This document shows positions 3,447 through 35,200 of a stretch of 64,000 bases of DNA, in pieces. The DNA comes from Natronosalvus caseinilyticus (GTDB lineage: Archaea; Halobacteriota; Halobacteria; Halobacteriales; Natrialbaceae). Positions within the stretch are counted from its first letter, which is position 1. The number at the start of each line of letters is the position of its first letter. The DNA lies in NCBI RefSeq assembly GCF_017357105.1, contig NZ_CP071596.1, forward strand, positions 3,658,001 to 3,722,000, written 5' to 3'. The notes beneath the pieces are model-generated. The model did not search any database and was not told the origin of the DNA. It saw only the letters and a program-made list of their open reading frames with translations. Made by a program: the position numbers and the translations under genes.

Positions 3447-3578
3447 CCTGGAAACACCGTATTACCGGAGTAGTTGCCCACAGAAGGCCGTAACGGTAGA
3501 ACGGGCTTTTGTCTATCCTCGCCGTCCGACGAGACCGTGAGACAGTCGAATCGACGAGCGCCCACCCCGCTCGAGATC

Positions 3579-4049: not shown

Positions 4050-4074
4050 GTTCGAGTCACGGCTCGAGGGAGAC

Positions 4075-4323
4075 TCATTCGAGTTCGAGTTCGACTTCGA
4101 GTCGCCGCCGTCGATGGGTGGCCTCGAGAAAGCCAGCGGCGACGGCGGCGAACGCGCCCATGACGATTGCGAAGCCGATAACGGGGAGGAGCGGTCCGTC
4201 GGTGAACACCCCGATCGCGAGCTGGGCGAGCGCGAGGACCACCGGTGCGACGACGACGAGTGCGGTTTCGACGGGCGCGGTTCGAAACAGTTCCGTCAAC
4301 GGGAATGTATCGGTTGCGGGCAT
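4075..4323 (-). CDS. Small two-helix membrane protein, unknown function
   Basis: 82 aa with two hydrophobic stretches (about residues 19-40 and 46-66), a basic cluster THRRRR after the second helix and an alternating Glu/Leu/Val tail (LEVELELE). The basic cluster suggests that the C-terminus faces the cytoplasm. Converges with the SPW-like gene and ends 25 nt from it. No family recognised. Codon use is chromosomal. Confidence 0.6.
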   Translation of the reverse strand: MPATDTFPLTELFRTAPVETALVVVAPVVLALAQLAIGVFTDGPLLPVIGFAIVMGAFAAVAAGFLEATHRRRRLEVELELE

Positions 4324-4512
4324 GCGAAATCCGTTCTTACCGGAATCCGGAACGGGGGTTTCGTAGCTCTTGTGGTTCTCGAGCGATCTCGAAACCGATC
4401 ACGAGACGGCGGTTCAATCCCACATTTGTCTGGAAACGTCGCCTTACGCAGCGGACGGGGCGCGTGTCGCCCCGACCGATACGTATTTTCTTCCCGACGC
4501 GTATCCTCGAGT

Positions 4513-5064
4513 ATGCGGATTCGTGACTGGCAGGACGTGCTCGAGGACGTCGTCGAACGGGACGTCGACCCCGAGGGGTGGCGCGCGGTCGCCGGCGACC
4601 GCGCTCGAGGGGTCGGCGAAGATATGTACCTCGCCCACCCCCGAGTCGGACTGCTCGTCCTGAAGACCTATGCGAAAAATCCCTACGAGGTCAGGGGCGT
4701 CGGAAGCCGGGTCGCCCGGCGACTGGACGACGAGATCGGCTCGTTTCTCCCCGACGAGGAGACGCCCAGCCGGTTCGCCGTCCAGTCCCCGCCGGAGGAC
4801 GAGGACCACGCCCAGTCGGTCGCCAGACGCCTCGAGACCGTCGTCCAGACCCACGCCGACGCGCCCACGCGTCCCCAGGACTTCTTCGACGACGTGATGG
4901 GCGCCCTCGAGAGCCCCGCGTTCGGGCCGATGGCCTACGACCAGGACGACCGCCCCGACGAACTCGAGGGGTTATCAGACGAGTTCGAAGACGCCGAGAA
5001 GTTGCTGGATTCCGAACTCGAGGACCTGATCGAAGAGGACGCGGTGGATCGTGGGTTCATGTAG
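4513..5064 (+). CDS. Conserved-looking haloarchaeal hypothetical protein
   Basis: 183 aa from ATG 4513. A longer open frame extends back to 4030 but overlaps the small membrane gene on the other strand, so the internal ATG with RIRDWQDVLEDVVE is preferred. The N-terminal 75 residues are compact (DMYLAHPRVGLLVLKTYAKN) and could be a small alpha/beta domain. The C-terminal half is highly acidic and helical, ending EDLIEEDAVDRGFM. There is no signal peptide or membrane segment. I do not recognise a function. Confidence 0.75.
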   Translation: MRIRDWQDVLEDVVERDVDPEGWRAVAGDRARGVGEDMYLAHPRVGLLVLKTYAKNPYEVRGVGSRVARRLDDEIGSFLPDEETPSRFAVQSPPEDEDHAQSVARRLETVVQTHADAPTRPQDFFDDVMGALESPAFGPMAYDQDDRPDELEGLSDEFEDAEKLLDSELEDLIEEDAVDRGFM

Positions 5065-5169
5065 CGAGCGTCGTCGTCATCTTCCACGTGAACGCTTGGC
5101 GAATACGCTCGAGGAGAACGCCTAACGAGAATAATCGACGAGACCACTCGACGAGATCGAGGCCGACCG

Positions 5170-6495
5170 TCAATCGGTCGTCACGGTCTCCTCCGGCCCG
5201 CCGTCGACAGGCGCGTCGGCCCACGCCCCGTCCGCGAGGTCGATCGCACCGGTCCACTTGCCGACGACCGACGAGACCGCGAGGTCGCCGGTAACGTTGT
5301 TCGTCGTCGCGATCCGACCGAGGATCGGATCGACGCCCGCGACGAAGCCGACGATCTCGAGGGGCAAGCCGAGCGCGTTCAGGATGACGGTGAGCATAAT
5401 GAGCCCGGCCCCGGGGACGCCGGCCGTCCCGATGCTGATCAGGATCACCGTAAAGAGGACGAGCACCTGCTCGCCTAATCCCAGCGAGATGCCGACCATG
5501 TTCGCGGCAAAGACGGCCGTTACCGCCTGCCGGATCGCCGCGCCGTCCATGTTGATCGTCGCCCCGAGTGGCAACCCGAAGCCGTAGACTGACTCGTCGA
5601 TTCGCAGGTTCTCCTCGGCGTCCGTGATCGTGACGGGCAAGGTGGCGGTCGAGGAACGGGTGGTGAACGCCATCAGCATGGCGTCTTTCGCCCCATTGAG
5701 GAAGTCCAGCGGCGACTGCCCGAGGATCCCCATCGTCATCACGCCGAGGTAGGTGACGGTCATGTGGATCACGATACCCACCGCGATGACGCCCACGAGC
5801 GCGCCGAGTTGCACGATCGCACCGAGTCCCTCGGTCCCGATCGACGCAGCCATCAGTGCGAAGACGCCGACGACGCCGTACTCGAGGACGCCCCAGATGA
5901 TCTTGAACAGCGCCTGCGTTCCGGCCTCGACGAACGCGAAGAAGCCGCCGATTGCCCCCTCGACGGACTCGTCGGTCGTGGCCTCGCGGACCGACGTCAG
6001 CGCGAGCCCGAAGACGATCACGAAGAAGATCGTCGCGAGGATGTCGCCTTCCACCATCGCCCCGAGCGGGTTCTCCGGGACGATCCCCAGCAGAACCTCC
6101 GTGACTGTCGGCGGCTCGGCCTCTCGAGCCTCGCCGCCGGTGAACTCCACGGCGGTGCCGGGGTCGAACAGGTTCGCGACCGCGAGGCCGATGACGGCCG
6201 CGACAGTCGTCGTCGCGATGTAGAGCCCGACCGTGAGCCCGCCGACCTTGCCCAGCCGAGACGGCGTCAGCTTGCGGATCCCGCCGAGCAGCGTGAAGAC
6301 GATAATCGGGATGATGAGCATCTCGAGGAGGCGCAAGAAGAGGTCCCCCAGCGGGCTGAGAACGCCCGCCTGCTCCCCGACGACGGCGCCGAGGGCGGTT
6401 CCGAGGACGAACGCGACGGCGATGCGGTAGATGAGTGGGACGGATCGATACCTGCTCCACAGGCGCCGGTGGAGCGGCGCGCGAATCTGGCTCAT
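5170..6495 (-). CDS. Dicarboxylate/amino acid:cation symporter (DAACS family)
   Basis: 441 aa, the usual length for GltPh/GltP-type sodium- or proton-coupled symporters that import glutamate, aspartate or C4-dicarboxylates. The signature re-entrant loops and binding motifs are present: TRSSTATLP (serine-rich hairpin 1), GATINMDGAA (the NMDG sodium site), GVPGAGL (hairpin 2) and TTNNVTGDLAVS (substrate-binding Asp/Asn on TM8). Hydrophobic segments are consistent with eight helices plus two hairpins. The N-terminal LHRRLWSRYRSVPLIYRI is a typical cytoplasmic lead-in. The minus-strand gene stands alone. Substrate specificity cannot be read from sequence alone. Confidence 0.93.
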   Translation of the reverse strand: MSQIRAPLHRRLWSRYRSVPLIYRIAVAFVLGTALGAVVGEQAGVLSPLGDLFLRLLEMLIIPIIVFTLLGGIRKLTPSRLGKVGGLTVGLYIATTTVAAVIGLAVANLFDPGTAVEFTGGEAREAEPPTVTEVLLGIVPENPLGAMVEGDILATIFFVIVFGLALTSVREATTDESVEGAIGGFFAFVEAGTQALFKIIWGVLEYGVVGVFALMAASIGTEGLGAIVQLGALVGVIAVGIVIHMTVTYLGVMTMGILGQSPLDFLNGAKDAMLMAFTTRSSTATLPVTITDAEENLRIDESVYGFGLPLGATINMDGAAIRQAVTAVFAANMVGISLGLGEQVLVLFTVILISIGTAGVPGAGLIMLTVILNALGLPLEIVGFVAGVDPILGRIATTNNVTGDLAVSSVVGKWTGAIDLADGAWADAPVDGGPEETVTTD

Positions 6496-6716
6496 TGGTT
6501 CCGCTTCTAGCTGAGGCCATCAATCGGTGTCGCTGTCGGTGAGATTCTCCGCCACCTGTGACGGTGAACGCCACGGGAGCCTACTACCGCGGTTCACTCC
6601 ACTGCACAAAGAGTCACTCACTACTACGCGTAAAAAACCCTTGAGCGTTACGGTATTTTTGAACGGCACCGTCACACCTTGTACCCCTCGGATTCGATGG
6701 ATACACGGATAACACG

Positions 6717-7376
6717 ATGCACACACTGTTTCCCACCCGCCTCGAGACGGACCGACTGATTTTCGAACGAATCAGCCACGAAACCGTCGACCCGTTCGAG
6801 CTGTACGCGTTCGTGAGTCGAGACAACTGGCAGACCGATGCGACCGAACACATGCCGTGGTTCCGGCTCCAGCGGCTCGACCAGGTCGCCGTGTTCGTCG
6901 ACCGGGCCGAACAGCAGTGGGCTGACCGCGAGCGGGCGCGGTACCTCCTTCGCTCGAACGACGAAGGGGGCGACATCGTCGGGACCACGGCCTACAAACC
7001 CGAGTGGGACACTCGCCGCGCCGGATCGGACATCGTTCTCGCACCGGCGTACTGGGGCCGCGAGTACGGCCTCGAGCGGGCATCCGCGTTCGTCGAGTTG
7101 ACGTTCGAGCGGTACGACCTCGAGGCGTTTTACACGACCTGCGCTGCCGATAACGAGCCGTCCCGACGGATGATCGAGAAGTACGTCGAGAAGTACGGTG
7201 GCCGCCACGAGGGGCTACTGCGCCAGCACTCGCCACGGTCGGACGGGACGGTGACTGACCAGCATCGATACACCATCGTGCGAGCGGAGTACGAGGAGGC
7301 GACAATGGAACTCGAGACGCTCGACTTCGACGTCGAGTGGGGTTTTCCACCGTATCGTGGCAGTTCTAGCCAATAA
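6717..7376 (+). CDS. GNAT-family N-acetyltransferase (RimJ/RimL-like)
   Basis: 219 aa. It begins with the LETDRLIFERI strand typical of RimJ/RimL-type acetyltransferases, continues with GGDIVGTTAYKPEW, and has the acetyl-CoA-binding region around YWGREYGLERASAFVELTFE and the NEPSRRMIEKY helix. The family transfers acetyl from acetyl-CoA to amines (protein N-termini, antibiotics, polyamines). The substrate is unknown here. The gene stands alone between opposite- or differently-oriented units; the 3' flank is an AT-rich stretch (7377-7420). Confidence 0.88.
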   Translation: MHTLFPTRLETDRLIFERISHETVDPFELYAFVSRDNWQTDATEHMPWFRLQRLDQVAVFVDRAEQQWADRERARYLLRSNDEGGDIVGTTAYKPEWDTRRAGSDIVLAPAYWGREYGLERASAFVELTFERYDLEAFYTTCAADNEPSRRMIEKYVEKYGGRHEGLLRQHSPRSDGTVTDQHRYTIVRAEYEEATMELETLDFDVEWGFPPYRGSSSQ

Positions 7377-7536
7377 TACAATAAACATACTATAATACTG
7401 CAGAAAATATGGTAATTGTCTACCTGCGTTCGAACGACGTTCCGTCTGACCGTGGGGCCGCGGGGCGGCGAGGCCGTGGCGGTTGCAAGCCCAACGGCCT
7501 TTTGGGCGAATCGACAATCACGAACTGGTGAAGCCT

Positions 7537-7761
7537 ATGTCCGAAGAGACAGATCACGGCCGAGACGTCGAACTGGCCAAAGAGGATCCCGAGGCGGACG
7601 AGGACGAAGAACTCACCGAGGAAGAAAAAGAGGCGCGTCGCCGCCGAGCCGAGGAAGAGCGAAAGGAGGACATCGAGCACGGATCGACCGAACGCGAGAA
7701 CGAGGCGCTCGAGCAGGAGAACCCCGACAATCACCGGGACGAGCCGCCGTACAACAGCTAG
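7537..7761 (+). CDS. Small highly charged acidic protein, unknown function
   Basis: 74 aa from ATG 7537, chosen over a longer frame because MSEETDHGRD begins the charged composition. Almost entirely Glu/Asp/Arg/Lys: a helical, probably coiled segment (EELTEEEKEARRRRAEEERK) followed by a disordered tail. Small haloarchaeal proteins like this are common. There is no recognisable domain. Confidence 0.6.
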   Translation: MSEETDHGRDVELAKEDPEADEDEELTEEEKEARRRRAEEERKEDIEHGSTERENEALEQENPDNHRDEPPYNS

Positions 7762-7955
7762 GGCGTCCCGGTCGTCGACCGAACCCCTCCGTTCGGGAAG
7801 GCCGTTTCGCTCAAGCGCTTCAGCGGAGTCCGCCTCGAATACCGGTTCTCGAACGCTGGAACGGACCGAAAAGCGGGTACGAGTTCTTGTACGCCTGACT
7901 CGCTACACTCGCCCATAGCGGTACCTCTTTTAGGCATCCACGCCACGCCTCGAGT

Positions 7956-8390
7956 ATGACCACGCTCGGGCTGGTGATCGCCCAGTTCAATCGCCCGATC
8001 ACCGAACGGATGGAGGACGCCGCCCTCGAAGCCGCCGAGGCCGCCGAGGCCGACGTGTACGACGTGGTGTCGGTCCCCGGCGTCTACGACGCGCCGCTGG
8101 CCGCCGACCGACTCGCGCGTCTCGACGCCGTCGATGCCGTCGTCGTGATCGGGACGGTCATCACCGGCGACACCGACCACGACCAGGTGATCACCGACGC
8201 CGCCGCCGGCCGCCTGGCCGACGTCAGCCTCGAGCGTGACACCCCGGTAACCCTCGGAGTGACGGGCCCCGGAATGTCAGCCGCGGAGGCTCGAGAGCGC
8301 GTCCAAAATGCCGCGAAGGCCGTCGATGGCGCGATCGACCTCGTCGAGGAACTGCCGGAACCGGAATCAGACCGCGAACCAGTCGACTGA
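7956..8390 (+). CDS. ribH: 6,7-dimethyl-8-ribityllumazine synthase
   Basis: 144 aa. It catalyses condensation of 5-amino-6-ribitylamino-uracil with 3,4-dihydroxybutanone phosphate, the penultimate riboflavin step. Hallmarks: LGLVIAQFNRPITERM (substrate loop with the aromatic after the first strand), VPGVYDAPLAADRL, VVVIGTVITGDTDHDQVI, and a C-terminal helix with AAKAVDGAIDL. A TTTTAG element at about 24-30 nt before ATG fits a leaderless promoter. The next gene (aminotransferase) follows after 45 nt, so the two may be cotranscribed. RibL, also in flavin synthesis, is 2.3 kb away on the other strand. Confidence 0.95.
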   Translation: MTTLGLVIAQFNRPITERMEDAALEAAEAAEADVYDVVSVPGVYDAPLAADRLARLDAVDAVVVIGTVITGDTDHDQVITDAAAGRLADVSLERDTPVTLGVTGPGMSAAEARERVQNAAKAVDGAIDLVEELPEPESDREPVD

Positions 8391-8435
8391 CACCGCCTCA
8401 CAGCCAGACCCACCACAGCCAAACCCACTTCAGCC

Positions 8436-9584
8436 ATGACCATGGAATTCACCGACCGCGTTGCCCGAGTCGAACCGTCCGCAACCCTCACCATCTCCGC
8501 ACTCGCCACCGAACTCGAGGCCGACGGCGTCGACGTCGTCGACCTGAGCGTCGGCGAACCGGACTTTCCGACGCCCGAAAACGTCGTCCAGGCCGGCAAG
8601 GACGCGATGGACGCCGGCCACACCGGCTACACGACGCCCGCGGGCCACCTCGAGCTTCGCGAGGCGATCTCGGAGAAACTCGCCGTCGACGGCCTCGACC
8701 ACGGCCCGGACGAGATTATCGTCACGCCCGGCGCGAAGCAATCGCTCTACGAAATCGTCCAGACCCTCGTTCAGAGCGGGGACGAGGTCGTCCTCCTCGA
8801 CCCCGCCTGGGTCTCCTACGAGGCGATGGTCGAGATGGCTGGCGGCTCCCTCTCGCGAGTCGACCTCTCACCGTACGACTTCCAGCTCGAGCCCGCCCTC
8901 GACGACCTCGCCGAGGCCGTTTCGGACGACACCGACCTGCTGATCGTCAACTCGCCGTCGAACCCCACGGGCGCTGTCTACTCCGACGCCGCCCTTGAGG
9001 GCGTTCGCGACCTGGCCGTCGAACACGACGTCACGGTCATCTCCGACGAGATTTACAAGGAGATTACCTACGGCGTCGAGCCCACGAGCCTGGGGACGCT
9101 CGAGGGGATGGCCGACCGAACGATTACGGTCAACGGCTTCTCGAAGGCCTACTCGATGACCGGCTGGCGGCTGGGGTACTTCGCCGGGCCGAAAGACCTG
9201 ATCGACCAGGCCGGCAAACTCCACAGCCACTCGGTATCCTCGGCGACGAACTTCGTCCAGTACGCCGGGATCGAGGCCCTCGAGAACACCGACGACGCCG
9301 TGACCCAGATGGTCGAGGCGTTCGAGGACCGACGCGACCTGGTCGTCGACTTGCTCGAGGAGCACGACGTCGACGTGGCCGTTCCGGACGGCGCATTCTA
9401 CATGATGCTCCCCGTCGACGACGACGATCAGGCCTGGTGTGAGGGCGCCATCGAGGATGCCCACGTGGCGACCGTCCCCGGCAGCGCCTTCGGAACGCCC
9501 GGGTACGCCCGCATCTCCTACGCGGCGAGCGAGGAGCGACTCGAGGAGGGAATCGAGCGGCTGGCGGCCGAAAACTACCTCTGA
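8436..9584 (+). CDS. PLP-dependent class I/II aminotransferase (aspartate aminotransferase-like)
   Basis: 382 aa (a second ATG lies two codons in). Fold-type I features: VGEPDFPTPENV, YTTPAGHLELREAI, TPGAKQSLYEIV, NSPSNPTGAVY with the cofactor-contacting Asn, VISDEIYKEITY with the Asp-Tyr pair, and the Schiff-base lysine in VNGFSKAYSMTGWRLGY near residue 237. It is archaeal AspC-like and transfers amino groups between aspartate or aromatic amino acids and 2-oxo acids; exact substrate unclear. It lies 45 nt downstream of ribH on the same strand. Confidence 0.93.
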   Translation: MTMEFTDRVARVEPSATLTISALATELEADGVDVVDLSVGEPDFPTPENVVQAGKDAMDAGHTGYTTPAGHLELREAISEKLAVDGLDHGPDEIIVTPGAKQSLYEIVQTLVQSGDEVVLLDPAWVSYEAMVEMAGGSLSRVDLSPYDFQLEPALDDLAEAVSDDTDLLIVNSPSNPTGAVYSDAALEGVRDLAVEHDVTVISDEIYKEITYGVEPTSLGTLEGMADRTITVNGFSKAYSMTGWRLGYFAGPKDLIDQAGKLHSHSVSSATNFVQYAGIEALENTDDAVTQMVEAFEDRRDLVVDLLEEHDVDVAVPDGAFYMMLPVDDDDQAWCEGAIEDAHVATVPGSAFGTPGYARISYAASEERLEEGIERLAAENYL

Positions 9585-9662
9585 CCGGCCTCGAGACGTA
9601 CCTTCCGCCACGTTTTTCATCCCCACACCTAGTTTTATTGATATTGTCTCCGTAGCGAGAAT

Positions 9663-10547
9663 ATGGCTCTCGAGAATCGTCGATCGCTGACAGCCGCACA
9701 GATCGCTGGCATCTACGCGGTCGTGAGCGGGCTGTGGGTCGTGCTCACCGATCGGATCCTCGAGGCCATCTTTCCAACGATCGCGGCCATGGCCGTCGCA
9801 CAGACGGCGAAAGGGCTCGTCTTCATCCTCGCCTCGACGGCCATCATCTACACTCTCGTCGCCCGGAGTCGACGCGAACTCGAGGAGACGAACCGGCGCC
9901 TCGACCTCGCGCTTCGACACTCGAGCGTGCTCCACCGCGTGCTCAGGCACAACCTTCGGAACACCTGCAACGTGATCCAGGGGACCGCCGAGACGCTCCA
10001 CGATCGAACCGAGGACGTCGACGAATCCCTCGATATCATCGAGGACGAAGCCGAACGGCTGGTTTCGATCGGCGACAAATCGCGATCGCTGGAGTCGGTG
10101 ATCGGAACGGGCCCACACGCTCGAACGGAGGTCGATCTGGCGGGGATCGTCGAGGAGTACGCCGAGATCTACCGCAAACGGTACCCGGATGTCCGAATCG
10201 AAACGGACGTTCCGGGGACCGCCCGTCTCGAGGCACACCCGAAGGTCGAACTCGCCGTCGACGAATTGCTCGAGAACGCCATCGTCCACCACGGATCCGA
10301 CGAGCCGACGGTGCGACTCGCGGTCGAGCGGTCCGCGGACGGGCACGTCGCCTTCGAGGTCGTCGACGACGGGGTTGGCATCCCAGCGGCCGAACGCGAG
10401 GCACTCGAGACGGCCATCGAGGATCAACTCGTCCACGCCAGCGGCGTCGGCCTCTGGTTGGCCCAGATCCTCGTCCTCGAGTCGGGCGGGACGTTCGAGG
10501 TCGGCAGCGCTGGCGCCGGTGGGACGACCGTGCGTGCCGTGTTCTGA
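9663..10547 (+). CDS. Membrane sensor histidine kinase
   Basis: 294 aa. Two transmembrane helices (about residues 14-36 and 42-66) separated by only a short loop, so there is no extracytoplasmic sensor domain. Then a dimerisation/phosphoacceptor helix with the haloarchaeal H-box VLRHNLRNTCNVIQG (His near 97) and an HATPase domain: N-box VDELLENAIVHH, G1 DDGVGIP, G2 GVGLWLAQILV, and a terminal GGTTVRAVF. No receiver domain and no adjacent response regulator, so its partner is elsewhere. An AT-rich segment (TTTTATTGATATTG) about 20-30 nt upstream may be the promoter. Confidence 0.92.
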   Translation: MALENRRSLTAAQIAGIYAVVSGLWVVLTDRILEAIFPTIAAMAVAQTAKGLVFILASTAIIYTLVARSRRELEETNRRLDLALRHSSVLHRVLRHNLRNTCNVIQGTAETLHDRTEDVDESLDIIEDEAERLVSIGDKSRSLESVIGTGPHARTEVDLAGIVEEYAEIYRKRYPDVRIETDVPGTARLEAHPKVELAVDELLENAIVHHGSDEPTVRLAVERSADGHVAFEVVDDGVGIPAAEREALETAIEDQLVHASGVGLWLAQILVLESGGTFEVGSAGAGGTTVRAVF

Positions 10548-10672
10548 CTGGTTTTGGCCCCAGTTCACGCCCATCGGCCCGAACTCGAGCAGAGGCAAGA
10601 ACTCGAGCGCTTTGGACCTGACTCGAGTCGTCGCTCAAATCCCCTAAACCGAACCCTGTAAGCCGAATCCCG

Positions 10673-11164
10673 TTACCCCCGACGCCGAAGAATTCGCTCG
10701 ACGATCAATCGCGTCGACAACAGTTCGTCGTCGTACTTCGACTCTCGCCCCGACGCACGCTCGACCGTACAATCGATGCCGCGGGACTCGAGTTCGGCTT
10801 CGATCGCCCCGGGGTCGTGGTGCTGGTCGTGACCCAGCGCGATCACGTCGGGGTCGAGTTCCTCGATCGGCCGGAAGATGTCCTCGCGATCACCCAGGAT
10901 GGCCTCGTCGACCACCTCGAGAGCGGCGACCAGCTCCCGGCGCTGCCGGGCGGCACAGATCGGCGCCTCCTTGTGATCGACGTTCGTCGGCCGGGCGACG
11001 ATGACGACGAGTTCGTCGCCCATCGCTCTGGCCTGCTCGAGGTAGTGGACGTGACCGGGGTGAAGGAGGTCGAAGGTTCCCTGCGCGACGACGAGTGTCC
11101 CGTCGGATCGATCCTCTCGTCCCCGGATTCGTGCCGTTCGGTCGGTGTCTCGCGTGTCCGTCAT
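10673..11164 (-). CDS. ribL: FAD synthase (FMN adenylyltransferase), archaeal RibL
   Basis: 163 aa. A nucleotidyltransferase of the cytidylyltransferase family that makes FAD from FMN and ATP in archaea. Seen: [19 protein letters not shown] with the HxGH motif at residues 35-38 (HPGH), [34 protein letters not shown], and the C-terminal STRLIVERI standing in for the ISSTRI motif. An acidic/basic N-terminal extension of about 20 residues precedes the domain. Its ATG overlaps by 4 nt (ATGA) the stop of a 45-aa ORF that in turn overlaps the JAMM gene, indicating one coupled transcript. Confidence 0.9.
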
Positions 11165-11298
11165 GGTAGTCTCTCACCGTCAGTCGCGTTCCTGCCGTCA
11201 CTGCTCGTCGCGTCCGCTGCGCTTGTGTCGCTCGCTTTGCTTGCCGTACTCCCCGCGCTCGTATCGCTCGTATCACTCGCTTCGTTCGCGTCGCTCAT
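11161..11298 (-). CDS. 45-aa Ser/Asp/Ala/Thr-rich ORF bridging the JAMM and ribL genes
   Basis: ATG at 11298 overlaps the JAMM-gene stop (ATGA), and its TGA overlaps the ribL ATG (also ATGA). The product is low-complexity (repeats of SDTS, SDTSAA, no hydrophobic core) and encoded by a GC-biased slippery tract. It may be a real microprotein, or it may exist mainly to carry ribosomes from the protease gene to ribL. No homologue recognised; real translation is inferred from the double overlap only. Confidence 0.4.
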
Positions 11299-11792
11299 CC
11301 GCGCAACTCCTCGTCGATGTCCGCTTGCGTGAAGTCGAAAAACGACTCGCTGTCGGGTAACTCGACGTCGATGACCTCGAGGTGCGTCCGCCGTCCCTGC
11401 GAGTCGAACGCCTTCCAGTCGTTCCGGCGGTAGGGCGCGCCGATGATGACGTGCACGCTGCCCCGGCCGAACGTCTCGAGGTCGGCCTGGCTCGGCCGGA
11501 TCACGCCATTCGGGTGGGAGTGGACGCTGCCGAGGGCCTTCACGTCGTTCGGGATTGAACTGGTCTGAACGGTCGCGCTCACGCTGTTGGACTCGGTTCC
11601 GGGGATTATCAGCACGTCGGTGATGACCAGCCCCTCTCGATCGAGTCCCAGTTCCGCGGCTTCGGTTCCTCGAAGAAAGCCCATGTACTCGTCGGGGTGG
11701 GCAGCCTCAGAGGATTCGAGGGCGAACTCGAGAGTTTCCTCGGCGATGCCGAGAATCTCGCTCGAGCGAAAGAGCGCGTCCAGCAGACCCAT
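11295..11792 (-). CDS. JAMM/MPN+ metalloprotease, HvJAMM1-like desampylase
   Basis: 165 aa, full length for the small archaeal JAMM proteases that cleave ubiquitin-like SAMP conjugates and C-terminal extensions. The zinc motif is complete: Glu35 (DEYMGFLRG), then HSHPNGVIRPSQAD giving His91, His93, Ser101 and Asp104. The family's role in haloarchaea is deconjugation of SAMPs involved in proteasome targeting, sulfur transfer and molybdopterin synthesis. Divergent from the DHH-protein gene at 11973, with a 180-nt shared promoter region. First gene of the JAMM - 45-aa ORF - ribL unit. Confidence 0.9.
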   Translation of the reverse strand: MGLLDALFRSSEILGIAEETLEFALESSEAAHPDEYMGFLRGTEAAELGLDREGLVITDVLIIPGTESNSVSATVQTSSIPNDVKALGSVHSHPNGVIRPSQADLETFGRGSVHVIIGAPYRRNDWKAFDSQGRRTHLEVIDVELPDSESFFDFTQADIDEELRG

Positions 11793-11972
11793 GCCTCTAC
11801 GTCCGGTCCTGACGTTGCTAAACGTTCCGGAAGCCGACGCCCGGGGGTCGAGTCGGTGTTCCCGGCGGTCCGGATTGGTACCGGCCGTGGGTTCTGCGCC
11901 CGTACCCGCCGAAAGCGCCCACAGATCGCCTTGGCAAGCGTTATACGCGGCGAAACCAAACTACCGTCACCG

Positions 11973-13901
11973 ATGACACGTGACTCCGCCGGAGGTTCCG
12001 GCGACAGTGATAGTGAAGACGGAGATGTTTCCGTCGTCTACGATCTCGCTCCCGATTGCACCGCTTCGGACGTCCAACCCGACCGCCCGTATCTCGCGTC
12101 GATCAACGGCATCGTCGAGTACGGCGTTTTCGTCGATCTCTCGGAGAACGTCTCCGGCCTCGTCCACGAATCCGTCCTGGAGGGCACCTTCAGCGTCGGC
12201 CAGGAACTCGCCGTCGAACTCGAGGAGGTTCGCGACAACGGCGACATGGCCTTCCAGCCGGCCGACGTCGACCTCGAGGAGGACGACTACACGGTCGAAC
12301 CAGTCGACCACGACTATCCCCTGACCGGGACCGACCGCCTCGAGGCGAACGTCGGCGAACAGGTCCACCTCGAGGGCGAAATCGTCCAGATCAAACAGAC
12401 CGGCGGCCCGACGATCTTCCACATCGCCGACGAGTACGGCGTCGTCCCCTGTGCCGCCTTCGAGGAGGCCGGCGTTCGCGCTTACCCCTCCGTCGAGGTG
12501 GGCGACATCGTTCGCGTCACTGGGACCCCCGAAACCCGCGAGGAGAGCGTCCAGATCGAGGTCGACGGCCTCTCGAACCTCGACGGCGAGGACGCGACCC
12601 AGGCCCGCGAACGACTCGAGGCCGCCCTCGAGGAGCGCGCCCAGCCCCACGACGTCGACCCGCTCATCGACTGGCCCGCGTTCGAGAAACTCCGCCCGAA
12701 CCTCATGGAGGTCGCGACCCTCCTCCGGCGAACCGTCCTCGAGGGGCGACCAATCCGCGTCCGCCACCACGCCGACGGCGACGGTATGTGCGCGGCCGTC
12801 CCCCTCCAGCTCGCCCTCGAGAACTTCATCGCCGAGGTGCACCAGGACGAGAACGCACCCCAGCACCTGATCAAACGCCTGCCCGCGAAGGCGCCGTTCT
12901 ACGAGATGGAAGACGCCACGCGCGACCTCAACTTCGCGCTCGAGGATCGCGAGCGACACGGCCAGCAACTGCCCCTCGTTCTCATGCTCGACAACGGCTC
13001 GACGGCCGAGGACGTACCCGCCTACGAGACGCTGGCCCACTACGACATCCCCATCGTCGCTATCGACCACCACCACCCCGACCCCGACGCCGTCGGCAGC
13101 CTGCTCGACGCCCACGTCAACCCGTACCTCCACGACGAGGACTACCGGATCACGACGGGCATGCTCTGTGTCGAACTCGCCCGGATGATCGACCCCGACC
13201 TCACCGACGACCTGCGGCACGTCCCCGCCGTGGCCGGCGTCTCGGATCGATCGAAGGCCGACGCGATGGACCAGTACCTCGAACTCGCCGCCGAGAACGA
13301 CTACGACGAAGACCGCCTGCGAGACGTCAGCGAGGCCCTCGACTACGCCGCCTTCTGGCTCCGCTACAACTCCGGCGATCACCTGATTCAGGACGTCCTC
13401 GAACTCTCCGACGCCGACGAGGACCGGCACCGGCGGCTGGTCACGTTCCTCGCCGACCGCTCCCGCCGGGACGTCGACCGCCAGCTCGACGCCGCCATGA
13501 ACCACGTCGAGCACGAACGCCTCGACAGCGGCGTCCACCTCTACCGGATCGACGTCGAAAACCACGCCCATCGGTTCACCTACCCCGCCCCGGGCAAGAC
13601 CACGGGCGAGATCCACGACCGCAAGATCCAGGAAACCGGCGACCCGGTCATCACGGTCGGCTACGGGCCCGATTTCGCCGTCCTCCGCAGCGACGGCGTC
13701 CGCCTCGACATCCCCCGAATGGTTTCTGAGCTCGAGGCGGAGATCCCCGGCGGCGGCGTCTCCGGCGGCGGCCACCTCGTCGTCGGCTCGATCAAGTTCG
13801 TCAAGGGCAAGCGCCAGGAGGTCATCGACGCCCTCGTCGAGAAGATGGCCGCCGCGGACATCGACGAGGCGCTCTCGAGTGCGGCGCCGCTCGAGAACTA
13901 G
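11973..13901 (+). CDS. RecJ-like DHH-family phosphoesterase with S1 and OB-fold domains
   Basis: 642 aa from ATG 11973 (a frame open back to 11697 runs over the divergent JAMM gene and is not used). Domains: acidic start, S1-like RNA-binding domain at about 25-95 (ASINGIVEYGVFVDLSENVSGLVHES), OB-fold about 125-205 (LEGEIVQIKQTGGPTIFHIAD), then DHH (RHHADGDGMCAAVPL, MLDNGS, AIDHHHPD) and DHHA1 (GGGVSGGGHLVVGSIKF). It resembles the archaeal RecJ/GAN-related exonucleases; in other archaea such proteins join Cdc45/RecJ-type replication or RNA-processing complexes. Target nucleic acid unknown. A second, shorter DHH-like gene lies at 40754-42043. Confidence 0.9.
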   Translation: MTRDSAGGSGDSDSEDGDVSVVYDLAPDCTASDVQPDRPYLASINGIVEYGVFVDLSENVSGLVHESVLEGTFSVGQELAVELEEVRDNGDMAFQPADVDLEEDDYTVEPVDHDYPLTGTDRLEANVGEQVHLEGEIVQIKQTGGPTIFHIADEYGVVPCAAFEEAGVRAYPSVEVGDIVRVTGTPETREESVQIEVDGLSNLDGEDATQARERLEAALEERAQPHDVDPLIDWPAFEKLRPNLMEVATLLRRTVLEGRPIRVRHHADGDGMCAAVPLQLALENFIAEVHQDENAPQHLIKRLPAKAPFYEMEDATRDLNFALEDRERHGQQLPLVLMLDNGSTAEDVPAYETLAHYDIPIVAIDHHHPDPDAVGSLLDAHVNPYLHDEDYRITTGMLCVELARMIDPDLTDDLRHVPAVAGVSDRSKADAMDQYLELAAENDYDEDRLRDVSEALDYAAFWLRYNSGDHLIQDVLELSDADEDRHRRLVTFLADRSRRDVDRQLDAAMNHVEHERLDSGVHLYRIDVENHAHRFTYPAPGKTTGEIHDRKIQETGDPVITVGYGPDFAVLRSDGVRLDIPRMVSELEAEIPGGGVSGGGHLVVGSIKFVKGKRQEVIDALVEKMAAADIDEALSSAAPLEN

Positions 13902-13902
13902 T

Positions 13903-14180
13903 CTAGAAGTAGATCCGTTCGTCGTCGACCGATTCTTCTTGCTTCCGCTGTCTCTCTTCATCCCGACCCTCGAACGCGAGCCGATGCCACCCGAGTGCGC
14001 CCGCAGCAACCACGCCGACACCCACCACGCCGAGTAACTCGAGCGGGACGGGAAGTGGCGTCGTCTCCTCTCCCTCCCAGTCGGCCTCGAAGACGGTCGT
14101 GTAGTACGAGGCGACCGACTCGCCGTGGAGAGCCAGGACGACTTCGCGATTGTTCCGGAGCGAGTTCCGGTTCCAGTTCA
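13903..14180 (-). pseudogene. C-terminal fragment of a phospholipase D-family gene split by the island
   Basis: Minus-strand frame LNWNRNSLRNNREVVLALHG, which is the second half of an HKD catalytic block (GSxNW then N-R-E), followed by VASYYTTVFEADWEGEE, one transmembrane helix (LELLGVVGVGVVAAGALGW) and a charged cytoplasmic tail ending DDERIYF. The matching N-terminal part lies 21 kb away at 35201-36885 and breaks off exactly at GSLNW. The small open frame that now starts at 14208 (MERQPICCV) is partly mobile-element sequence. The fragment cannot be an active enzyme alone. Confidence 0.88.
14171..14180 (+). repeat. Left attachment core (attL)
   Basis: TTCCAGTTCA, identical to 35201-35210. 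To its left is host gene sequence (phospholipase D C-terminal codons); to its right is island sequence. On the coding (minus) strand the core reads TGAACTGGAA and encodes the L-N-W part of the HKD motif. Confidence 0.85.
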
Positions 14181-14191
14181 GAACACAACAG

Positions 14192-14221
14192 ATAGGTTGA
14201 CGTTCCATTAGATGAACCTAT
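14192..14221. promoter_or_regulatory. Inverted repeat between attL and the integrase gene
   Basis: ATAGGTT (14192-14198) and AACCTAT (14215-14221), 16-nt spacer, between the attachment core and the integrase ATG at 14227. An equivalent TAGGTT/AACCTA pair lies just inside attR. The position suggests integrase binding arms that would also shut off integrase transcription when occupied. Confidence 0.6.
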
Positions 14222-14226
14222 AGTGT

Positions 14227-15777
14227 ATGTCAGACAACAAGCTCGACGCTAACGGATACCACCAGAAGGTCGAACGGGAGCTAAAGAACGTCAAAAGACT
14301 CTCGCTGGACAACGATGATGAACGGAAAGCCGAGGACCTCACAGTAGCAGACCTTGATGGAGATGCTCGCGAGATATATCTGTTCTCGCAATATGTACGT
14401 GATGACCAAGAAGCAGCGAGTGCGATGAATTTGATTGCTCGCCTACGGAGACTCAGCGAGGTTTCAGACAAGCCTCTCACAGAGTGTAGCCCGGATGATA
14501 TCAATGCACTACTGGGTTCCCTTGCAGAGAAAAATTTAGGCACAGGAAAAACGTACAAGTCCTCAACGAAACGGAAATACCTCGATGCTGTTACTGAGTT
14601 TGCTGAGAACCGCGGTATCGATGCGTTAGTCGATATCGAACGTCCCAGTCTGAAGATAGAGAAAGTAGATGAAGACTTTATCCTCTCGAAATCCGAAGTT
14701 TGGGACCTGATTGAATCTGCAAATAACATTCGAACTAAAGCCATTATCGCGATATCGTGGGATTGCGCATGGCGCGTTACAGCCCTCATCTCGCTTAAAG
14801 TCAAGGATTACACGCGCATGGGCAGTGAATATGGATTACTCCAACTGCCAACAAAGGCGGAAGGGTTGAAAGGAGCGGGTGGCTTCAAGAAACCAGTCAC
14901 GGTGTCGAAAGGATATTTAGAAAATTGGCTGGCTGAGCATCCGTGTCAAGACGACCCTGAGGCAGCCCTCTTCTGCAGGATGGACAAAGAAAAACACTAC
15001 GGCGAACACATGACTGGTGAGGCTGTACGTAAGCATCTAAAGAAGGCAGCTACAAACGCAGGGATTGACAAAGACCGTGTTTACCCTCATGCGTTTCGGC
15101 ATGCTCGAGCAACGTACATGAAAAAGTCAAACGATTATAGTGATTTACATATTGAGCACACACTAAATTGGGCAGAAGGGTCTAATGAGCATAAGCGGTA
15201 TGAGCATTTAGACCAAGATGACAAGATAAATGCAATATTGCGTGCGAAGGGTATCGATGCGCAAGATGATGACGTTGACCCCGAAGAAATCGATTGCCCT
15301 CAATGTCAGCGGAAGATTCCGTTCGATGCGAATCGGTGCCCATACTGTAGTATGATTATCGACGACCGGCCCGCAGAGTGGTTCCAACTCTATCGGGAAA
15401 TCGTCAATGAAGACGACCCTGTCAAAAAGAAATATGATGAGATGGCTTCAATAACGCCCGAAATCGCGGGCCTTACCAAAGCCGAATTTGAGCACGTTCG
15501 GGAAAAATTCGCTATGGCCGTCCAGTTACATGACTTCGGCGGGATTGATTATGACGACCACAGAAAAAATGTCGAAGATTATGACTGGGCTTCAGAAATC
15601 GACATCAGTGGGATTGATGAGACTGATATTGACTACATCAGTAAGAACTGGGTTGCTGCATCAGAACCATTAGCTCGAAACTTCGACGTTAACGAGACTG
15701 AATACCGATTACAAGGGAGTGCAACCGGATTACCAGTTAAGGATATTGAAGAGGATTTAGACAAACTCGACAACTAA
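14227..15777 (+). CDS. Tyrosine recombinase (integrase) with C-terminal zinc ribbon
   Basis: 516 aa. N-terminal SAM-like core-binding domain about residues 50-150 (ECSPDDINALLGSLAEK). Catalytic domain: Arg in DCAWRVTALISLKVKDY near 183, HAFRHARATYM giving HxxR near 288-291, second His/Trp region HTLNWAEGS, and the nucleophile Tyr in HKRYEHL near 325. After the catalytic domain comes a CPQC...CPYC zinc ribbon (about 357-378) and a 140-residue acidic helical tail, the layout of haloarchaeal phage/plasmid integrases. It lies 46 nt from the attL core, as expected for the enzyme that inserted the island. Confidence 0.93.
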   Translation: MSDNKLDANGYHQKVERELKNVKRLSLDNDDERKAEDLTVADLDGDAREIYLFSQYVRDDQEAASAMNLIARLRRLSEVSDKPLTECSPDDINALLGSLAEKNLGTGKTYKSSTKRKYLDAVTEFAENRGIDALVDIERPSLKIEKVDEDFILSKSEVWDLIESANNIRTKAIIAISWDCAWRVTALISLKVKDYTRMGSEYGLLQLPTKAEGLKGAGGFKKPVTVSKGYLENWLAEHPCQDDPEAALFCRMDKEKHYGEHMTGEAVRKHLKKAATNAGIDKDRVYPHAFRHARATYMKKSNDYSDLHIEHTLNWAEGSNEHKRYEHLDQDDKINAILRAKGIDAQDDDVDPEEIDCPQCQRKIPFDANRCPYCSMIIDDRPAEWFQLYREIVNEDDPVKKKYDEMASITPEIAGLTKAEFEHVREKFAMAVQLHDFGGIDYDDHRKNVEDYDWASEIDISGIDETDIDYISKNWVAASEPLARNFDVNETEYRLQGSATGLPVKDIEEDLDKLDN

Positions 15778-16162
15778 TCAAACGAAGCAGAGTTCGGGCG
15801 CTCGCCCTCGAAAACTTCGACGAGGACAGTGCGGAAGACACCCATCAAGTTTGTTAATCGACCTGAGTAGGGGCGCTACTAAAGAACCAATGGAAGTTTT
15901 AGCGCAAGCCGCCGATTCAGACATCGCACTGAGGCGTAATTGCGGCTCGAGCATCCCGACATGACGTGACCGACAACCACGAACGCGAATCACTATTGAC
16001 GACAAAACAGGGGCGTCCTGCCAAGACGGACGATTCAATGGTATATCTACGCAATGTTGCGGCCCTGCTGCTACACGAACGAGTTACTTCCTATCAGGTT
16101 CAACAAATAGGAACTCACTTTTCTACACCAAGACCTTTGTAGATTGGCTAGAATATTCTTTT
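15778..16162. other. Gene-free stretch between integrase and ApeA-like gene
   Basis: 385 nt. The first 80 nt are GC-richer than the rest, as if patched in from chromosomal DNA. No convincing gene, tRNA or repeat. The minus-strand open frame at 15778-16038 has no recognisable protein character. Confidence 0.5.
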
Positions 16163-17638
16163 ATGCAAAGTGTAGAATTCGAAGGATATTGGTGGCCGCC
16201 CGGAGAGCATGAAAACCGGGTCGGGGGAGTCCTTTCGTATGAGCCAGAGTCAGGGGCTACCCTAAACCTGTTTGAATCGTTTGAATCCGGTGTACTCCTC
16301 ACAAGAGAAAGGGAACATGAAGCACATAGCCGTCTATACGGCCTTTCTAAAGAAGGTGACCTCCTCACATTAGTTGATTCTCACCGTGATGGATTTAGCT
16401 CAACTCAAACAGTAGCGGGCAACGTAAGTTACTCAACATATCAACCGAGATATGTCTTAGACGGAATCCATGTTCCACAGAACAAAAACATCTCTTTTAC
16501 GAGGCTTACCACAAGCTTTCCGGGGATTGAGGAGTGGACACAGCACATTCCTTCATCAGATGTAGATGGGGTTCCCGGGCGGACTGTAGAGATTGTTGTA
16601 GATAATCCTGACCCGATAGAGGCGAAAACCGTAGAATACACACTCACGCTTTCAAGTTCCTTTAAGACATCCCGGTCACGCGGCGAAACTCCCTCAGTCC
16701 CAAATGAAACAAGGTTTCATCTTTATCCAAAGCATCCGGCCATCACATTGAGTCGGTTAAGGGACTATATCTATTCGCTCCGAGGGCTACTCACAATCGC
16801 AACGAACCATCCAATAGAACCAAGATACGTGCAAGCAAGAACTCCCGATTCGGGATTCACCACTATTGATGTATACTATGGGAACCCATCTTTTGGGCAG
16901 CCGGGGTCTCCGGGAATCACGAATCTCAATTTCCGACTTCCGGATATTCCTAATGGGTTCAGTGGCTTAATAGAGAGATGGTTTGGCCTGAGACAAGACA
17001 CTAAATCAGCTATTGACCTTTTCCTTGGAACACAGTATAACCCCAATATGTACCGAGAGAACATTTTCCTCTCGCTCACACAAGCTATTGAATCCTATCA
17101 TCGGCGTAGATATCAAGATGAATATATGGACTCTCAGAAGTATGAATCAGGCGTTTACCCGGACGTAATGGATTTCATCAGGGGTGATTTGAATGATGTG
17201 TATGATGACCCCAGTATGTTCCATGGCAATTCGTTATCTCAATCTCAAGTACAACAACTTAAGACCATGAGCGACGCTCACGATATCCCGAATGACTTAG
17301 GAAATGTCTTAGATTCAGCTATTAAATATGCCAACGAATACTCTCTACGGAAGCGGTTTAAAGAGTTAGTGAATGACGAATTCCACAGCATCCTAACAGG
17401 CCTTCCTCATAGTGCTGTCGGACAGATTCATCCCATCGTTGAGACAAGGAATCACCATACTCATCAACTGAAAGGCGAACAGAAAGACCCCGCGATAGCT
17501 GAAGGTGCTGATTTAACGCGGCTAACTTGGTCGTTAGAACAGCTATTAGAGGTGGCATTCTTAGCAGAAATTGGTGTTTCTGAATCGCAAATACGGAACA
17601 CACTCTATGATAGATACAAGCAGTATCGGGTTCTCTAA
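16163..17638 (+). CDS. ApeA-like HEPN-domain defence protein
   Basis: 491 aa. The N-terminus has the ApeA N-terminal-domain pattern (FEGYWWPPG, then VGGVLSYEPESGATLNLF) followed by a large beta-rich region. The C-terminal about 200 residues form an Apea-type HEPN domain: helical FLSLTQAIESYHRR, LRKRFKELV, and the RNase motif ETRNHHTHQL, which gives R-N-x3-H (Arg near 428, His near 433). HEPN proteins with Rx4-6H motifs are metal-independent RNases; bacterial ApeA acts as a single-gene antiphage system, presumably by cleaving RNA on infection. Here the gene stands alone next to the integrase, a common position for swappable defence cargo. Archaeal ApeA-type proteins are little studied. Confidence 0.82.
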   Translation: MQSVEFEGYWWPPGEHENRVGGVLSYEPESGATLNLFESFESGVLLTREREHEAHSRLYGLSKEGDLLTLVDSHRDGFSSTQTVAGNVSYSTYQPRYVLDGIHVPQNKNISFTRLTTSFPGIEEWTQHIPSSDVDGVPGRTVEIVVDNPDPIEAKTVEYTLTLSSSFKTSRSRGETPSVPNETRFHLYPKHPAITLSRLRDYIYSLRGLLTIATNHPIEPRYVQARTPDSGFTTIDVYYGNPSFGQPGSPGITNLNFRLPDIPNGFSGLIERWFGLRQDTKSAIDLFLGTQYNPNMYRENIFLSLTQAIESYHRRRYQDEYMDSQKYESGVYPDVMDFIRGDLNDVYDDPSMFHGNSLSQSQVQQLKTMSDAHDIPNDLGNVLDSAIKYANEYSLRKRFKELVNDEFHSILTGLPHSAVGQIHPIVETRNHHTHQLKGEQKDPAIAEGADLTRLTWSLEQLLEVAFLAEIGVSESQIRNTLYDRYKQYRVL

Positions 17639-18170
17639 TCTCTACAGATTTTCCCACTTAGATATCAAAAGTGACTCCATGCGTGGTTCGTTGACAGGGC
17701 AAGCCGTAAAATCACGATGGTCGTCAAAACTACAACTCAATTTACAAGAGCGGTCTTGTGATGGACATTGTTGGTGGAAAGTTCCCTTGCGATTTCTTGA
17801 TTACAGCAACCAAGACCGTGGAGCGGTCAGGATATCGTATTTACTGCTGAATGGCCCCCTTCATCCTCTGGGTTGGCGCCTCTATTGCTACCAACAATCT
17901 ACATTGGATGAGCAATGAGAATTGTTAGTGCGGTCAACGTTGTGGCACAACTAACTATTGGTAAACAAAGACGCAAATATGAAATATAATTTACTATATT
18001 AGTCTGGCTGCTAAGCCGAAAAAATCAGTCTTAGCCCGCAGAATAAGGCCCAAGCATAACAAGAGAACGTACTGTCAGTGAAAATAGCTATAGTGGTAGA
18101 GCACGTAGACCATAACGACTGAGGCTTTCGAATGGCGTAACGAAGGGCGTCATTCGCACCCCCTCACAAA

Positions 18171-18186
18171 CTAACAGCGTTGTTAG
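18171..18186. repeat. Palindrome CTAACA-GCGT-TGTTAG, copy 1
   Basis: 16-bp interrupted palindrome. The second copy with a different 4-nt spacer (ACAC) is at 18368-18383, and a half site GTTGTTAG is near 18203. Same arms and different spacers suggest a dimeric protein's binding site. Confidence 0.6.
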
Positions 18187-18367
18187 GACGATTCGAGACG
18201 ATGTTGTTAGGGCAGGGGTGAAATGGCCTCCACACAGACCACAACCTGACAAGAAAGAAGGGTGAATATGTGTGTTAGTAATATAAATATTCCTTCGTTA
18301 GAGTGGGGTCTATTTACGAAGAAGCTTAGAAGAGAAGCTTCGAGTTACAGGTAGGTCCTTGACCCGC

Positions 18368-18383
18368 CTAACAACACTGTTAG
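18368..18383. repeat. Palindrome CTAACA-ACAC-TGTTAG, copy 2
   Basis: Second copy of the interrupted palindrome, 197 bp from copy 1; flanked by C on the left and GG on the right. Lies about 215 nt upstream of the first zinc-finger microprotein gene. Confidence 0.6.
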
Positions 18384-18546
18384 GACCCCAACTTGCCCAG
18401 CAAATCCTTCAATAGCATCTACTGAAAGTGCTAACGTACTGATAGTGCCTTACCAGTCCTTGGCACTAGTAGAGTATCAATTCGACGCGCGGTAGGTATT
18501 CAATCAACTGAGTTGACGAGAGTTCATAGAAATGGGGGTTGACCAG

Positions 18547-18561
18547 CACAATACCTTAGCA
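18547..18561 (+). promoter_or_regulatory. Conserved 15-nt block upstream of zinc-finger microprotein 1
   Basis: CACAATACCTTAGCA lies 22-36 nt before the ATG at 18583. The identical 15-mer lies at exactly the same distance before the paralogue at 25948, while the 21 nt between block and ATG differ. That spacing is where archaeal BRE/TATA elements sit, so a shared core promoter is the simplest reading. Confidence 0.6.
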
Positions 18562-18582
18562 GTTGGATTATTTATATATACT

Positions 18583-18777
18583 ATGGAACAAGCAAGAGAA
18601 ATTGGCCAAGTTGGACCACATGAGATGGTTTACGCTGAGAGGCGACCTGAGGACAGCGAAGAGATAATCTATTTCTGTGCATGGTGTTCGCTTGAAACAA
18701 CTAAGAAATACATGCTCCAACATTATAGATGTGGACGAGACCGGTACAGAGATACCGCACGGTATACCATTAACTGA
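18583..18777 (+). CDS. Zinc-finger microprotein, copy 1
   Basis: 64 aa from ATG 18583. A frame open to 18532 exists, but the residues just before this ATG are not conserved with the paralogue. Middle motif VGPHEMVYAERRPEDSEE, then a C-x2-C...H-x2-C finger (FCAWC, then TTKKYMLQHYRC) and a basic tail RDRYRDTARYTIN. The paralogue at 25754-25948 shares most residues across its whole length. It could be a nucleic-acid-binding regulator or antitoxin-like microprotein; no named family recognised. Confidence 0.75.
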   Translation: MEQAREIGQVGPHEMVYAERRPEDSEEIIYFCAWCSLETTKKYMLQHYRCGRDRYRDTARYTIN

Positions 18778-19083
18778 CATCATCCTCGAATCAGTTCCAA
18801 GAGATATTCTCTAGCCAGACCTCTACCTCCGGTGTCATACAGCTAGACTGAGGGTGTCATAGAAAGTTTGCATACCCTCTCTATGACTACCCGATAAACG
18901 GTAAGTACAGGGGAGACACGTAGCGGTGCCTTGATAGTGAGAATCAGCCGTAGGAGAAACCACTCACCCAGATTTCGACGCCATTGCCAATGTTCGAAGA
19001 AGGTAGGGGCTCACAACGAATATTGACTGAGTTAGCCATCAACTCCGGCAGTCACACTTCACTACTTCAGGAATATAGAACAG
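18778..19083. other. Gene-free stretch with an 8-bp inverted repeat
   Basis: 306 nt without a gene. Contains GTCATAGA (18856-18863) and TCTATGAC (18880-18887), which could form a hairpin with a 16-nt loop, and an extra copy of GGTGTCATA just upstream (about 18830). It may terminate transcription of the zinc-finger microprotein gene or encode a short RNA. Confidence 0.4.
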
Positions 19084-19489: not shown

Positions 19490-20530
19490 ATGTCCATATC
19501 GATAAGCGAACTCGAAACTAATCTACAACAAATCAACGAATACGAGTTCGAAGAGTTCGTTGCCGAGGTCTGGTGCCACCGGGGCTGGAACACTCGTGTT
19601 ACCCAAGGGGCGGCCGACAAAGGTATCGACGTTGTCGCTGAGAAAGACTTCCCTTACGAAGAGAAGATTCTGATTCAAGCCAAACGGTATGGCTCGGGGA
19701 GCAGGGTCGGGAGTCCAGAGATGCAGAAGTACGCATCACTCGTCCAGCGCGACAAGGTCGATAAGGTCCTCATCGTCTGTACTAGTAACTTTACCTCGCA
19801 GGCACAGGATATCGCAAAGGATTTCGGAATCAAGTGCGTTAATGGACGAATCCTCGCACAAATTATCCAACAGGAGGGACTGGAAGACCTAGTCCGAGAG
19901 TACGTTGGAGAAATTGATGACGCTCAAATTGACTCGCCAACTCCCGCGACCGCCAGCGTTGAGAGCGAAGATGATACGGATACTACCATCGATGCGGCTC
20001 TGTACGCGGAAGGCGAGCATTTGACCATGGAGTTGACGGGATTGTCCTACTCTGACCGTCTGTCCCGCACTATCGCAACGTTCGAGATACATAATAAAGC
20101 AGATTCAAAATGGAAAATTGACACTGAAGACTTCACGGTTATTTCGAAGGACGGGTTCAGCCATAACCCGCTGCGATTGAGAGTGATGGAGAACATCCCG
20201 GGAGATTGGGGAATGGTATATGAAGATATACGACCAGACGCCAAAATCCGATATCTCGCCGCCTTCAACTCAGATATTGTTGATAATATAGAACGAATAG
20301 AGTACGATGCACCAGTTCGGAAGCGCCTATCAGGTGCATCAATTGTTCCATCGTCTCCGCCATCCTCACCAGATAAGGATGCAAGTCTCGACGAGATACG
20401 CAAGCAGATTGAGAAACGAACAGCTAACAGGCTGCGAACAGAGACTCTGAATTTAATGGTAACAGAATCAGATAAACAGCACTTGTCAATCCCAGATTCC
20501 CTACCGATTGAGGAAATCTATATTCAATAA
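19490..20530 (+). CDS. Mrr-type restriction endonuclease with C-terminal beta domain
   Basis: 346 aa. Residues 8-135 are an Mrr-cat PD-(D/E)XK nuclease: YEFEEFVAEVWCHRGWNTRVTQ, catalytic GIDVVAE (Asp near 47), ILIQAKRYG (Q-x-K near 63-65), VGSPEMQKYASL and VLIVCTSNFTSQAQDIA, the standard Mrr signature. After an acidic linker, residues about 165-275 form a beta-rich domain (FEIHNKADSKWKIDTEDFTVIS) like the small ligand- or protein-binding domains attached to membrane or defence proteins; then a helical tail. Mrr enzymes cut methylated or invading DNA. No methyltransferase is adjacent, so it may be a modification-dependent nuclease. It starts a run of small membrane-associated genes. Confidence 0.88.
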   Translation: MSISISELETNLQQINEYEFEEFVAEVWCHRGWNTRVTQGAADKGIDVVAEKDFPYEEKILIQAKRYGSGSRVGSPEMQKYASLVQRDKVDKVLIVCTSNFTSQAQDIAKDFGIKCVNGRILAQIIQQEGLEDLVREYVGEIDDAQIDSPTPATASVESEDDTDTTIDAALYAEGEHLTMELTGLSYSDRLSRTIATFEIHNKADSKWKIDTEDFTVISKDGFSHNPLRLRVMENIPGDWGMVYEDIRPDAKIRYLAAFNSDIVDNIERIEYDAPVRKRLSGASIVPSSPPSSPDKDASLDEIRKQIEKRTANRLRTETLNLMVTESDKQHLSIPDSLPIEEIYIQ

Positions 20531-25753: not shown

Positions 25754-25948
25754 TCAGTCAATCGTATACCGGTCGTTATCCTTGTATCGGTCACGCTCAC
25801 ACCGATAGTGCTGAAGCATATATTTTTTAGTTGTCTCATAGTCACACCATGCACAAAAGCACACGACGCGGTCACTATCGCTCGGTCGTCGCTCAGCGTA
25901 AACCATGTCATGTGGTCCAACTTCACCAACTTCACTAATATTTTCCAT
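25754..25948 (-). CDS. Zinc-finger microprotein, copy 2
   Basis: 64 aa from ATG 25948 (a GTG at 26005 would extend it, but the intervening residues are not conserved). Paralogue of 18583-18777: VGPHDMVYAERRPSDS and FCAWC...TTKKYMLQHYRC are shared almost exactly, as are RDRY and RYTI near the end. It has the same C-x2-C...H-x2-C finger. The two copies are 7 kb apart in opposite orientation within the same island and share a promoter block, so this is a duplication of gene plus promoter. Confidence 0.75.
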   Translation of the reverse strand: MENISEVGEVGPHDMVYAERRPSDSDRVVCFCAWCDYETTKKYMLQHYRCERDRYKDNDRYTID

Positions 25949-25969
25949 ATGCAATAGAATATGTTCTAT

Positions 25970-25984
25970 TGCTAAGGTATTGTG
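25970..25984 (-). promoter_or_regulatory. Conserved 15-nt block upstream of zinc-finger microprotein 2
   Basis: CACAATACCTTAGCA on the minus strand, 22-36 nt before ATG 25948: same sequence and same offset as at 18547-18561. Confidence 0.6.
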
Positions 25985-30967: not shown

Positions 30968-30992
30968 GACGGGCACTTCTCATCCGGGCGTG

Positions 30993-34754: not shown

Positions 34755-35167
34755 GGTCTTATTCAAGCAGCAGTTGGGCGGAACGTCTGTCCCCCTTACA
34801 CTTGGGCCGATTGTAGAGTTCGCTTGCGCGTATGAACGTGGGTGTCCAATCATCTGGAGCGAGTCTATTGGGGATTCCCTCAGGGTAACGGGCCATCGAG
34901 TGGCTTGTTATCTGCTCAACCATGATTGGATGGACGGGAGGTATATTCAAAACTATTCAGACCGTAATTTATGAATGAATTTGAATATGTTTAAGAAATC
35001 CTTAACTTATGGGCATACAATACAGTTAATACGAGAATGGTAATACAATTTAACACGCAGCTACACACTAATTAGGGGTTTAACAGGATATAGAAAGAGA
35101 AATCGCATTCAGAGGAGGTCTATTTAAAACATCGTTCTAGGACGAATGTGTTGGGAATTATACTTTT

Positions 35168-35199: not shown

Positions 35200-35200
35200 C

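Follow-up and report, generated by a model that had tools for sequence, protein, structure and literature searches.

The window, a 64,000-nt stretch of contig NZ_CP071596.1 of Natronosalvus caseinilyticus, carries on its plus strand an open reading frame (16163–17638) that begins with ATG, encodes 491 aa and has no internal stop. The start is backed by alignment, as the N-terminus MQSVEFEGYWWPPGEHENRVGG pairs with MEKLEYEGHWWLPGEHEDRVGG of the nearest relative, L010, an ApeA protein from another haloarchaeal family (genome G372). When the protein was searched against Pfam with hmmscan, only two families were matched, both at full profile length: ApeA_NTD1 (PF18862), with residues 5–273 on profile positions 1–271 of 271 (E 5.9e-36, 124.8 bits where the cut-off is 25.5; 16175–16981, plus strand), and then HEPN_Apea (PF18739), with residues 303–476 on positions 1–136 of 136 (E 6.8e-21, 75.6 bits against a cut-off of 24.4; 17069–17590, plus strand). 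Gao et al. (2020), as summarised in PMC7699616, tested ApeA, a family of defence proteins with these two domains, in E. coli. The PADLOC models agreed with the assignment (PDC-S58, 4.1e-59; Cas13-ApeA, 5e-29), and a search of NCBIfam matched no family. The double full-length profile match ruled out a chance reading frame. The original prediction had placed an ApeA family protein with both halves of the layout in an archaeal host; the host is indeed an archaeon, and the searches with the two ApeA models, each far above its cut-off and with the N-terminal domain ahead of the HEPN domain, confirm the rest, so that the frame is a complete and intact member of the ApeA family.

An AlphaFold2 model of the protein built with 18 sequences (pLDDT 78, pTM 0.75) has a strand-rich N-terminal part, the presumed sensor, and an all-helical C-terminal part, the predicted HEPN RNase domain. 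The HEPN half modelled alone reached a pLDDT of 80, and its six top VIA-align matches were all HEPN proteins, with Z from 4.7 to 7.4 (HEPN toxin 7ae2/7ae6, 7.4; Csm6 8jbb, 6.7; 4nqf, 6.0; Csm6 6tug, 5.2; 8pe3, 4.7), values below 8 being rated as common by the tool. Foldseek returned no significant match in the PDB for either the full or the HEPN-half model and nothing significant in a viral library for the full model, and searching the PDB by sequence, with the single sequence and two profiles, likewise gave nothing significant. Because Z stayed below 8 and Foldseek found no significant match, the argument for the fold rests on all six top VIA-align rows being HEPN proteins, and the model supports, short of proof, a HEPN-like fold for this half. 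The MNT-HEPN toxin (7ae2) and Csm6 (8jbb) resemble the ApeA protein in their helical fold, as predicted here, and in the Rx4H motif, but they have partner or sensor domains of their own (antitoxin and CARF, respectively), and no PDB entry matched ApeA by sequence. The N-terminal half matched Hcp/tail-tube and PilZ folds with Z from 5 to 7.3, again a level common for the tool. In the alignments the HEPN domain also contained an insert of some 34 residues (about aa 342–375; 17186–17287, plus strand), which is shared with L010 and partly with L026, and which was modelled with low confidence in both the full and the HEPN-only models.

The predicted catalytic motif, Rx4H, is present as R429-N-H-H-T-H434 (RNHHTH; 17447–17464, plus strand). 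Relatives for alignment were gathered from whole genomes, plasmid records and named genome contigs. In a 25-sequence archaeal alignment, comprising the window's ApeA and 24 relatives, the invariant residues were G60, W125, E310, R429 and H434, and the same five were invariant in a 17-sequence set of this protein and 16 archaeal and bacterial relatives; E310, the acidic residue of the HEPN domain, is encoded at 17090–17092 (plus strand). The motif had been predicted to keep the catalytic Arg and His, and R429 and H434 do lie in the aligned, invariant Rx4H column, which rules out a motif out of register. Both alignments excluded L014, a divergent haloarchaeal ApeA_NTD1 protein (genome G251) whose HEPN half is below HEPN_Apea detection and has SSIDSLLEG in place of Rx4H. 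The motif is therefore not universal across the whole family, and L014 may, from its sequence, be an inactive or re-purposed ApeA.

The window's ApeA is 61% identical to L010, with 0.24 non-synonymous differences per site (pN) against a saturated synonymous value (pS) of 0.80; judged by this comparison, the gene is under strong purifying selection. Identity to L010 is 68% in the HEPN half and 52% in the N-terminal half, and faster change in the N-terminal half is what a sensor placed before a fixed effector would give. Whole-protein identity to the relatives other than L010 was 16–31%. These data bear on the reading that the gene is a decaying passenger that has lost its function. Such decay would fit a Halobacterium salinarum plasmid record in which only the HEPN part is annotated, and two relatives (L059 and L073) that cannot be read through in one frame, but the copy in the window runs to full length with every invariant residue kept, and it has the excess of pS over pN given above, and we regard this reading as very improbable. 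The window's ApeA is probably functional.

The gene lies within a low-GC integrated island of 21.0 kb (14171–35210), where GC is 43–53% between about 14 and 35 kb as compared with mostly 61–71% outside. In four congeners (G607, G605, G260 and G265) the site is empty, the sequence to the left of 14180 running straight into that to the right of 35201, and in the window both ends of the island carry the 10-bp direct repeat TTCCAGTTCA (14171–14180 and 35201–35210). The first gene of the island encodes a tyrosine integrase with a zinc-ribbon-like C-terminal segment (14227–15777, plus strand; PF00589, 9.9e-14). It is followed by ApeA, an Mrr-type restriction endonuclease (19490–20530, plus strand; PF04471, 3.7e-25), a type IIG-like restriction-methyltransferase (27485–30976, minus strand; PF07669, 3.2e-35; PADLOC REase_MTase_IIG, 1.9e-67), a second, short tyrosine recombinase of 198 aa (31175–31771; PF00589, 5e-10), a Schlafen/AlbA_2 domain protein (32006–33439, minus strand; PF04326, 1.4e-14) and an HNH endonuclease resembling type IV restriction enzymes (33927–34853, minus strand; PF01844, 2.9e-08; mREase_IV, 8.8e-15). 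The integrase, the four empty sites and the terminal repeats uphold the earlier proposal of an integrase-linked archaeal island, and ApeA is cargo of this integrase-driven element.

The target of the island is a phospholipase-D-like gene, whose N-terminal part is found at 35167–36885 and whose C-terminal part at 13903–14208, both on the minus strand; in the three congeners checked it is uninterrupted, a single open frame some 660 codons long. This gene has been interrupted twice in the genus. The window's island splits the region of the second HKD motif (GSLNW), and in G607 the first HKD motif (HHPKY) is the site of a different island of 14.6 kb, which has the 15-bp repeat GCGTACTTGGGATGG and recombinase-like and type I restriction-like frames of its own (L046, about 1374–16052). 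For the short recombinase at 31175–31771, a match of 29% identity was seen in L047 (congener G605). Two inverted copies of a repeat of about 230 bp, some 76% alike, were also observed in the window's island (18547–18777 and 25754–25984); the small frame that overlaps the first copy (18532–18777) had no significant Pfam match. The 1.4 kb or so directly downstream of ApeA (17639–19083) contain no convincing gene.

Linkage of ApeA to an integrase recurs among its relatives. Among the positions listed, no more than about 10 kb separates ApeA from an integrase in at least the window, G372, G464 and G001, and the nearest one is farther away in several other genomes; bacterial ApeA genes stand beside an integrase or integrase remnants in Burkholderia latens and in one E. 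coli. The linkage is thus occasional and no rule. L010, which shares the HEPN insert with the window's ApeA, also adjoins a tyrosine recombinase (L044:11261–12259) and has a type I methyltransferase gene nearby, but its integrase is a different one, with no tblastn match to that of the window, and its chromosomal surroundings differ. When related loci were searched by tblastn, many of them with short flanks only, no neighbour gene recurred besides restriction, HNH and recombinase genes, and the lack of a constant neighbour fits a single-gene system. A position next to an integrase, as in the window, L010 and the Burkholderia and E. coli relatives, could also mean that this ApeA-descended HEPN RNase is an addiction or stabilisation module that kills or slows cells losing the island. 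We consider this improbable: there is no adjacent candidate antitoxin, the next convincing gene being Mrr at 19490, no antitoxin-like neighbour was shared with relatives in the tblastn searches, and, among the positions listed, several relatives have no integrase close by.

ApeA had been taken to be known from bacteria, so that an archaeal copy would widen the range of the family. This part of the original prediction did not hold. Anantharaman et al. (2013; PMC3710099), who described ApeA-NTD1 and the conserved Rx4-6H of ApeA/BMEI1217, already gave its phyletic pattern as 'Bacteria > Archaea' (Table 1). In agreement with this, ApeA_NTD1 was found in 19 of the 393 genomes sampled from the host phylum, about one in twenty, and HEPN_Apea in 13 of 293 genomes of the host order. 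ApeA genes are also present on haloarchaeal plasmids in PLSDB (Halomicrobium, Halanaeroarchaeum, Halobacterium and Halocatena), whose records annotate them as 'HEPN domain-containing protein', and, among the named genome contigs, in Archaeoglobi and Methanophagales assemblies. Haloarchaeal ApeA is therefore of a previously known kind, and the window's copy does not widen the range of the family. Archaeal ApeA genes that look broken or frameshifted were noted on a Halobacterium salinarum plasmid, in Halorubrum californiense and in a Methanophagales assembly (L055 8001–9359, L059 and L073).

A tree of 42 sequences grouped all 13 haloarchaeal ApeA proteins in a single clade (99/94), in which L010 is the sister of the window's protein; the deeper branches joining bacteria and other archaea were weakly supported. 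Since the 13 sequences fall in one clade, the window's protein belongs to a haloarchaeal lineage already established, and a recent transfer from bacteria is ruled out. Two members of the clade that are already public, the 'HEPN domain-containing protein' WP_225336172.1 of Halomicrobium urmianum and the Natrinema limicola ApeA (L058), differ from the window's ApeA in their gene neighbourhoods and are about 25–31% identical to it. A scan of genome contigs with the single ApeA protein confirmed no relative. No ApeA relative was confirmed by an alignment-guided scan of viral contigs, and tblastn against phage records gave no match, so that there is no sign of a virus-borne ApeA within those collections. 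A literature search returned no paper that combined ApeA, Halobacteria and defence systems.

As compared with the ApeA family as described, the window's protein has both domains in the same order, a similar length, the Rx4H motif, a probable single-gene arrangement and a location among mobile and defence genes. It differs in its haloarchaeal host, in its identity of about 21–23% to the plasmid-borne members from bacteria that were found, and in the HEPN insert, which is common only to close haloarchaeal relatives. We favour, with a probability of about 0.8, the reading that it is a complete single-gene haloarchaeal ApeA immune protein, carried as island cargo, in which a signal caused by a virus would lead a HEPN dimer to cut RNA and thereby block virus production. 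The restriction, HNH and Schlafen-type genes on the same island count in favour of a role in defence. In the resting cell ApeA would be off. Upon infection, the beta-rich N-terminal domain would bind a virus-caused signal, for which short products of DNA breakdown, possibly deoxydinucleotides, are the most plausible candidates, and the C-terminal HEPN domains would act as a dimer, R429 and H434 (and E310) cutting host or viral RNA. This cleavage would halt translation and block virus production, so that the infected cell would be stopped. HEPN domains that carry Rx4-6H function as dimeric RNases (PMC3710099, PMC13405049), and a 2026 preprint (cited in PMC13405049) names deoxydinucleotides in its title as activators of bacterial ApeA; on these two grounds, the second a title, we consider it most likely that DNA breakdown products or another virus-caused signal would be sensed and that the HEPN dimer would then cut RNA.

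An anti-viral ApeA might also respond to something else, for instance a nucleotide second messenger or a structural protein of the virus. Given how poorly the N-terminal domain is conserved (52% even with L010, against a background of 16–31% over the whole protein with other relatives), a change of ligand could have occurred, but G60 and W125 are invariant in archaeal and bacterial members, which hints at a common fold and perhaps at one kind of ligand; we hold a different signal to be possible but rather unlikely. The HEPN insert in some members and the fast-changing N-terminal domain could further be read as marks of a functionally distinct archaeal branch, in which the haloarchaeal clade would sense an archaeal-virus signal or cut an RNA different from that cut by bacterial ApeA, a proposal that we consider doubtful.

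Taken together, our results support the island-borne, single-gene immune protein as the preferred reading of this locus. The window provides a clean, full-length haloarchaeal copy, with a 61%-identical relative in another family, for studying ApeA defence in archaea, and it adds one further case of a predicted HEPN RNase, encoded by a single gene, that is carried by an integrase-driven island.
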